This document shows positions 16,021 through 17,820 of a stretch of 64,000 bases of DNA, piece by piece. Made by a program: the position numbers and the translations under genes. Positions within the stretch are counted from its first letter, which is position 1. Every line of letters begins with the position of its first letter. This stretch comes from Cheilinus undulatus (lineage: Eukaryota; Chordata; Actinopteri; Labriformes; Labridae), in NCBI RefSeq assembly GCF_018320785.1, contig NC_054869.1, positions 43,117,789-43,181,788 of the forward strand, in the 5' to 3' direction. The notes beneath the pieces are model-generated. The model was not told the origin of the DNA, ran no database searches, and saw only the letters and a list, made by a program, of their open reading frames with translations.

Positions 16021-17820
16021 AATACTTTTTGCTGCTATTGAAGCCCACCACTAGATGGTAATTCTAGATTCCTTCTTTGCTACAACACCTTCCTCAGGTG
16101 TATAAAATGAAATACCTAGCCATGAAGTCTCCATTTGAAACATCTGTGATACAAAATGGGGCATTCTGAAGAGCTCAGTGACTTCAAGCGAGGTATTGTG
16201 ATACATGCCACCTTTGCAATAAGACATATAATTCATATTTCATCCCTGCTGGATATTCCACTGTCAACTGTACATGATGTTATTAGAAAGTGGAAGCATT
16301 TAGGAACAACAGCAACTTAGCCACAAGTTGGAAGACCTCGTAAAATCCCAGAGAGAGGTCAATGATTGTTAAGGCACATGGTTCATAAAAGTCACCAACA
16401 CTCTGCTGATCCCATAGCTGAGGTGTTCTAAACTTCCACTGGCATTAATGTAAGCATAAAACTGTGTGGCGGGAGCTTCGTGGAATATGTTTCCATGGCC
16501 AAGCAGCTGCATGCAAGCCTCACATCTTCAAGTCCAATGCCAAGCATCAGATGGAGTGGTGTAAGCTGTAAAGCACACCAATGCTGTGGAGCAGTGGAAA
16601 AGTGTTCTGTGGAGTGACCAATCACACTTCTATGTATGGCAGTCAGATGGGTGAGTCTTGGCTGGTGGGTATCAATAGAACATTTGCTTTCTGACTGCAT
16701 TGTGCCAACTGTGAACTTTGGTGGAGGAGGGATAATTGTGTGGGGCTGTTTCTCAGGTTCTGGTCTAGGGCTCCTTTGCTCCTATGAAGGGCAATCTTAA
16801 TACTTCAACATATCAAGACATTTTGGAAAATGATATGCTTCCAACTCTGTGGCAGCAGTTCCAGGAAGGCCATTAAATATTCCAACATGACTGTACCCCA
16901 AAACAAGGACTCTAAAGACATGGTTTGATGAGTTTGGTGTTGAAGAACTTTACTGGCCCAACAGAGTCCTGACCTCAACCTCATCGAGAACCTTTGGGAT
17001 GAACTGAAACGGAGATTGTGAGGCCTTTTAATCCAACATCACTGCCTGACCTCATAAAAGTTCTACAGAATGAATGGGCACAAATTCCCACAGAAACACT
17101 CCAAGGTTAGAGGCTGTTATAGCTGTAAAAGGGAGGAGTACTCCATGTTAAAGTGTATTAATTTGACTGCAATGTCAATACAGTCCCTGTTTAACCTGGC
17201 ACGCCAGATGGATTTGTTTCACACATCCATCTGGAAAACCTCTCATAGACAGCGATTGGGAAAGGGCAGAGCCTTTGAAAAAAACTCTGAGGGTGATTGG
17301 ATGAACGTTCTGTCTGTCACATCTTTACGGGCCAATCAGAACAACAAAACATGTGATGTAGCCACTACTAAGCTGCGCCCCTACCGAGGAGTAAACTCCA
17401 TACAGAACTGCATAACGCGAACCATGTCGACTGTAGACATGTCAGTACATGACTTTTGTCGTTTTTGAAAAGAAAATCACTCAGTGCTCTTGTTTGTTCT
17501 TTTATCGAAGAAATGTTGTCAAGTTCTGATAAAACTGGTGCTCTAGCAGCAGCCACTCTAATGTCTTCTGCCATTATTGCACTGACCTCTTGTTGCTGCT
17601 TGCTTACGTCACAACTCCGCCACACCCGAAAGTGCTTCCCTTCGTCGCTGATTGGTCCTGTTGCTTTCTAACCGGGCCCAAACGGTTCAGACAGTAGCTT
17701 TGCAAGATGGATTTGCCAGTAAGAACCACGGAAACGGGCGTATCCATCTACTTTGCAAGGTTAGTCCCTGTTGGTGTGATGGTCAGACAGCCAAATAGGT
17801 AAGTTCATATAGTGTAGACA
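16020..17820 (+). mobile_element. Tc1-like element with broken transposase, split by a nested MITE
   Basis: The plus strand from about 16150 carries a Tc1-like transposase remnant: 'GHSEELSDFKRGIV', a '[13 protein letters not shown]' segment, 'WSDQSHFYVWQSDG', then 'NFGGGGIIVWGCFSGSG' and 'DLNLIENLWDELK'-like text. Frameshifts and in-frame stops disable it. The 3' inverted-repeat end 'tcatatagtgta' lies at 17804-17816; the 5' end is missing. The 3' arm is interrupted at 17192-17763 by a different element, so the Tc1 copy is the older of the two. Confidence 0.8.
17192..17763 (-). mobile_element. Hairpin-ended non-autonomous element with 9-bp target duplication
   Basis: The ends are TAACCTGGCA and TTGCAAGGTTA, imperfect inverted repeats, each followed inside by a 'agatggat' segment and its inverse, so each end can fold on itself. 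GTCCCTGTT flanks both sides (17183-17191 and 17764-17772) and restores the continuous Tc1 3' arm when joined. The minus strand carries a 'MAEDIRVAAARAPV' start, then 'SSIKEQTRALSDFLF', resembling the segment before the Walker A motif in RecQ-type helicases; the copy at 38.6 kb shares it. CpG content is clearly above that of the surroundings. It is 572 bases long, too short to encode a transposase. The superfamily is unresolved: a 9-bp duplication fits Mutator-like elements, but no MULE protein is visible. Confidence 0.75.

Follow-up and report, generated by a model that had tools for sequence, protein, structure and literature searches.

The question raised by a stretch of 64,000 nucleotides from the wrasse Cheilinus undulatus (contig NC_054869.1, positions 43,117,789 to 43,181,788 of the forward strand; hereafter the window) is where a short, hairpin-ended element at positions 17192-17763 of this stretch came from. 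A sequence-only reading of the window had proposed that this element and three relatives are deletion derivatives of an unrecognised autonomous element encoding a helicase, and had pointed to a 9-bp duplication as a possible link to Mutator-like elements (MULEs). The explanation preferred here, to which a probability of roughly 0.88 can be attached, is that the short element is an internal-deletion derivative, resembling a miniature inverted-repeat transposable element (MITE), of an AcademH-type DNA transposon with two genes. The family is most suitably regarded as a new and very abundant short derivative of a kind of transposon that is already known.

The element is a complete, non-autonomous MITE of 572 bp, lying on the forward strand with its transposase-gene end shown to the left. 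It has the TAACC and GGTTA ends that had been noted and is flanked by an exact 9-bp target-site duplication, GTCCCTGTT, at 17183-17191 and 17764-17772. Terminal inverted repeats of 22 bp are found at 17192-17213 (forward strand) and 17742-17763 (reverse strand), and the inner part of each is the outer arm of a terminal hairpin, at 17204-17234 on the left (arms CCAGATGGAT and ATCCATCTGG) and at 17705-17749 on the right (arms AGATGGAT and ATCCATCT, the sub-terminal inverted segments already recognised in the sequence-only reading). In the family consensus the inverted ends are imperfect, the left being identical to the right at 18 of 22 positions by a count made by eye, and each leads into a hairpin whose arms are AGATGGAT and ATCCATCT. 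When the consensus ends were folded with RNA energies and compared with single-base shuffles, the left end reached -19.9, where the shuffles averaged -6.1 and 0 of 500 were equally good, and the right end -22.1, where they averaged -13.1 and 5 of 500 were equally good. Against a 9-kb copy of the parent type, described below, the left hairpin (40 of 43 positions) is more conserved than the sequence behind it (144 of 185 aligned positions), whereas on the right the hairpin (53 of 63) has no such advantage over its neighbour (106 of 126); conservation of the hairpins as such is therefore seen at one end only.

A genome search with the whole element gave 11,007 first-look candidates, the best 40 of which were scored and comprise the window copy and 39 others at 85-87% identity; as the genome searches score the best candidates only, further copies may exist. 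Thirty-three of the 40 span positions 1-572 and seven are without a few end bases (11 at most). The consensus, of 576 bp, was built from 21 genome copies, namely the window copy and 20 of the 39 others fetched with their flanks; each is 90.5-94.3% identical to it and, given that these copies were picked by likeness to the query, the identity figures cannot be taken for the family as a whole. The 31-base left hairpin, when as many as 2 mismatches are allowed, occurs at 8,434 sites in the genome (4,222 forward and 4,212 reverse), none of which can have been counted twice because the two orientations of the hairpin differ at five loop positions, and a control pattern, the left hairpin read backwards, was found at 0 sites. 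Target duplications were compared in 22 insertions, these being the 9-kb copy, the window copy and the 20 fetched copies. At a length of 9 bp the flanks agree at 84%, compared with 26% in mismatched pairs, and every other length between 2 and 14 gives 21% to 34%; the 9-bp flanks are exact in 5 of the 22 insertions, have at most one difference in 14, and in the worst case agree at 4 of 9 positions. The target duplications of the family are of 9 bp and have no fixed sequence.

The proposed parentage is carried by a copy of 8,995 bp at C14:1079324-1088318, in which both ends of the short element are present, the left at 1079324 and the right at 1088318, with flanks that match at 8 of 9 positions. 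Genome copies are thus not confined to 0.6 kb, a size limit that the sequence-only reading had named as counting against its proposal. This copy was reached through a search of the host genome for the RecQ family, which gave 28 matches among the 45 candidates scored, and was read from three fetched stretches; six loci were inspected by eye, of which five resembled ordinary RecQ or DEAD-box genes and were set aside, the sixth being the copy itself. Between its ends lie a DUF6589 gene on the forward strand and, convergent with it, a RecQ-type helicase gene on the reverse strand that has both N- and C-terminal parts; a Pfam search of seven pieces of the copy gave DUF6589 for one, helicase domains for two and nothing for four. 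In-frame stops break both gene readings, a frame change probably interrupts that of the helicase as well, and the Walker A motif of the helicase departs from its usual form. Within the helicase part there is also an unrelated, partly palindromic repeat (C14:1086924-1087197) with many copies elsewhere.

Set beside this copy, the short element brings together the starts of both genes. The first codons of the DUF6589 gene lie at 17424-17465 on the forward strand, reading MSTVDMSVHDFCRF and then a stop, those of the RecQ-like helicase gene lie at 17478-17574 on the reverse strand, in a reading that begins MAEDIRVAAARAPVLSELDNISSIKEQTRALSD, and the deletion junction that unites the 5' ends of these convergent genes lies between them at 17468-17477. 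In the consensus the start codons stand at position 234 for the DUF6589 gene and, on the minus strand, at position 387 for the helicase gene, and the coding starts are joined at approximately positions 278-287, with AGAAA present on both sides in the long copy. Homologues agree with both starts: P0011, a DUF6589 protein, begins MATVEVTIPSIHDCCRFCKEN, and the N-terminus of P0002 agrees with the helicase start. Furthermore, the 52-residue consensus reading of the helicase matches two database proteins (59% and 63% identity, E 6.1e-4 and 9.9e-4), P0002 extends past the matched N-terminus into a Walker A-like stretch, and in the 9-kb copy the same reading continues into the helicase. Because the starts of both genes meet in the short element, the helicase-like fragment of the sequence-only reading is the N-terminus of a RecQ-like helicase, and the suggestion that such elements are deletion derivatives of a longer, helicase-encoding element is supported by a copy with the same ends and a matching helicase N-terminus. 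What had been overlooked is that the short element also holds the start of the putative transposase gene.

Other long copies are less complete. On C10 the left end is present and parts of positions 1-3490 of the 9-kb element match at 67-82%; a partial copy of the parent type on C7 (C7:45937639-45941398) matches parts of positions 246-2587 at 68-81%; and on C19 positions 86-457 of the element were matched at 66%. The C7 copy holds the gene model of P0011 (LOC121511854, Cheilinus undulatus, 409 residues), the two exons of which lie there without stops at 100% and 99% identity. LOC121511854 is probably a transposon relic that has been annotated as a gene, and it may have been domesticated. When the interior of the 9-kb copy served as a DNA query, 161 candidates were obtained, the best 40 of which were scored and yielded 170 matches; besides those on C14, C10 and C7, these included two helicase-region fragments, at C12:2269420-2269923 (70%) and C9:4467661-4467821 (88%), and most of the other matches listed fall in query positions 5302-5608, an unrelated repeat. 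A DUF6589 profile search of the genome, in which two candidates were scored, gave one match, and a DUF6589-like trace was observed on C13 (35% identity, E 1.3e-4; element match 60%). No intact autonomous long copy was seen among the scored genome matches, all long copies found being decayed or partial, and this weighs against the proposed parentage.

The product of the DUF6589 gene is probably a DDE-type transposase with an RNase H fold, judging from modelled structure. The predicted fold of a DUF6589 homologue resembles that of the DDE transposases of the P element, hAT (Hermes), Transib and RAG; its D-D-E candidates are arranged around a helical insertion, and the likeness is one of predicted fold at a sequence identity of just 8-14% in the first 15 structural alignments of the model. 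A Foldseek search of the PDB with this model gave nothing at E <= 0.001, its first rows being transporters with low TM-scores. A first fold model (P0006, 11 sequences) was poor, with a pLDDT of 42.9, and was not used further. DUF6589 was found in fish, lancelets, a hemichordate, a cnidarian, a sponge and mussels. The evidence added here that DUF6589 is a transposase suggests that many gene models with this domain, currently labelled 'uncharacterized', are probably transposon genes.

Taken as an AcademH-type derivative, the short element may be given the following history. The parent would have had a DUF6589 gene and a RecQ-type helicase gene pointing towards each other, enclosed by imperfect inverted ends of 22 bp that supply the outer part of the terminal hairpins, and a deletion at the AGAAA stretch would have joined the first codons of both genes while keeping both ends. 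The DUF6589 protein would catalyse transposition and the helicase would take part in it; the transposase, acting in trans, would have copied the short product to thousands of sites with a 9-bp target duplication at each insertion, and the window copy would have inserted in a Tc1-like relic. All 20 fetched copies align across the deletion junction, which points to a single founding deletion for the family. In the C. undulatus genome the family would now be inactive or nearly so.

Within the window, the sequence-only reading had described four copies with a shared layout, which holds only for the complete element at 17192-17763. A second copy, of 541 bp on the reverse strand (38630-39170), has TAACC/GGTTA ends and the right hairpin, the left being absent, and its flanks ACAGAAAAA and ACAAAAAAG match at 7 of 9 positions, which may be chance given that they are A-rich. 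This copy may stand for a subfamily with a single hairpin, in which case the left hairpin would be dispensable. The remaining two are reverse-strand fragments, one with a left-end portion only (9136-9307, matching element positions 17-186 at 74% identity) and one with a right-end portion (31905-32011, matching positions 456-568 at 65% identity) together with one additional weak piece (E 0.76). To the left of the insertion lies a relic on the forward strand (16138-17191) which we take to be Tc1-like, the label coming from the sequence-only reading, not from a family search. Removal of the duplication had been said to restore a continuous Tc1 3' arm; similarity of the relic to other copies lies to the left of the element, on the right a 26-base stretch (17791-17816) weakly matches the outer end of another of these copies in the window (22 of 26, E 0.052), and no uninterrupted Tc1 across the insertion join was found within the window. 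Three related relics carry the same label (16138-17166, 7308-7493 and 47515-48412), the one at 47.5-48.4 kb being oriented opposite to the other two, and a direct duplication is found nearby (23458-23821 and 24643-25014, spacing of approximately 1.19 kb, 76-82% identical).

Among the alternatives, the one that survives best is that elements with DUF6589 and a RecQ-type helicase form a lineage of their own, parallel to AcademH and defined by DUF6589, acting as a DDE transposase, and by hairpin-forming 22-bp inverted repeats that the transposase or the helicase would recognise as structures. In its favour, Pfam describes DUF6589 as a family of unknown function, the word DUF6589 was not found in the literature searched, and AcademH was compared by description only; given that helicase content, duplication length and occurrence in an animal are all as reported for AcademH, this separate lineage is improbable. 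Less probable still is that the element is a MULE MITE whose helicase text is a captured host fragment. A 9-bp target duplication is usual for MULEs and was confirmed here, but it is not diagnostic: first, none of the seven pieces of the 9-kb copy has a MULE domain, so that a MULE origin was rejected, and all 27 aligned transposase relatives match Pfam DUF6589 while none matches a MULE model (E 0.001), and the suggested Mutator link is not supported. Second, what the long copy carries is a helicase gene in which N- and C-terminal parts are both present, rather than an isolated piece of one. Kolobok elements target TTAA, and membership of KolobokH, a lineage of DNA transposons for which a RecQ helicase is likewise reported, was rejected as hardly credible on the 9-bp duplications found here, which are without fixed TTAA. 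In the passages of PMC9587614 that deal with these elements, KolobokH has a RecQ-type helicase beside a DDD/E transposase and a red-alga Kolobok has its helicase on the complementary strand, as here, whereas KolobokH is stated only from fungi and the present family is from a fish.

AcademH itself was reportedly described in 2020 by Kojima (Mob DNA 11:15). The present family resembles it, by description and not by sequence, in three respects: a transposase and a helicase in one element (DUF6589 and RecQ-type, in the 9-kb copy), a duplication of 9 bp in 22 insertions, and an animal host, the hosts of AcademH being animals or fungi. In the passages that describe it, AcademH is an Academ lineage encoding a helicase (PMC10045372, PMC10799480) and makes target-site duplications of 9 or 10 bp (PMC10045372). 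The parent combines a transposase that is probably of DDE type, a helicase of RecQ type and duplications of 9 bp, features reported for AcademH; it is better regarded as a member of a recognised kind than as the unrecognised autonomous element first proposed, and DUF6589 would be the Academ transposase. The literature searched holds no mention of a short AcademH derivative joining two gene starts, and a likely parentage, in a related helicase-bearing transposon, can now be given for an abundant fish-genome repeat with thousands of short copies. In abundance, the copy numbers given for Academ in three other teleosts (PMC4746887) are 334-987, compared with 8,434 hairpin sites of the present family, the methods of counting being different.
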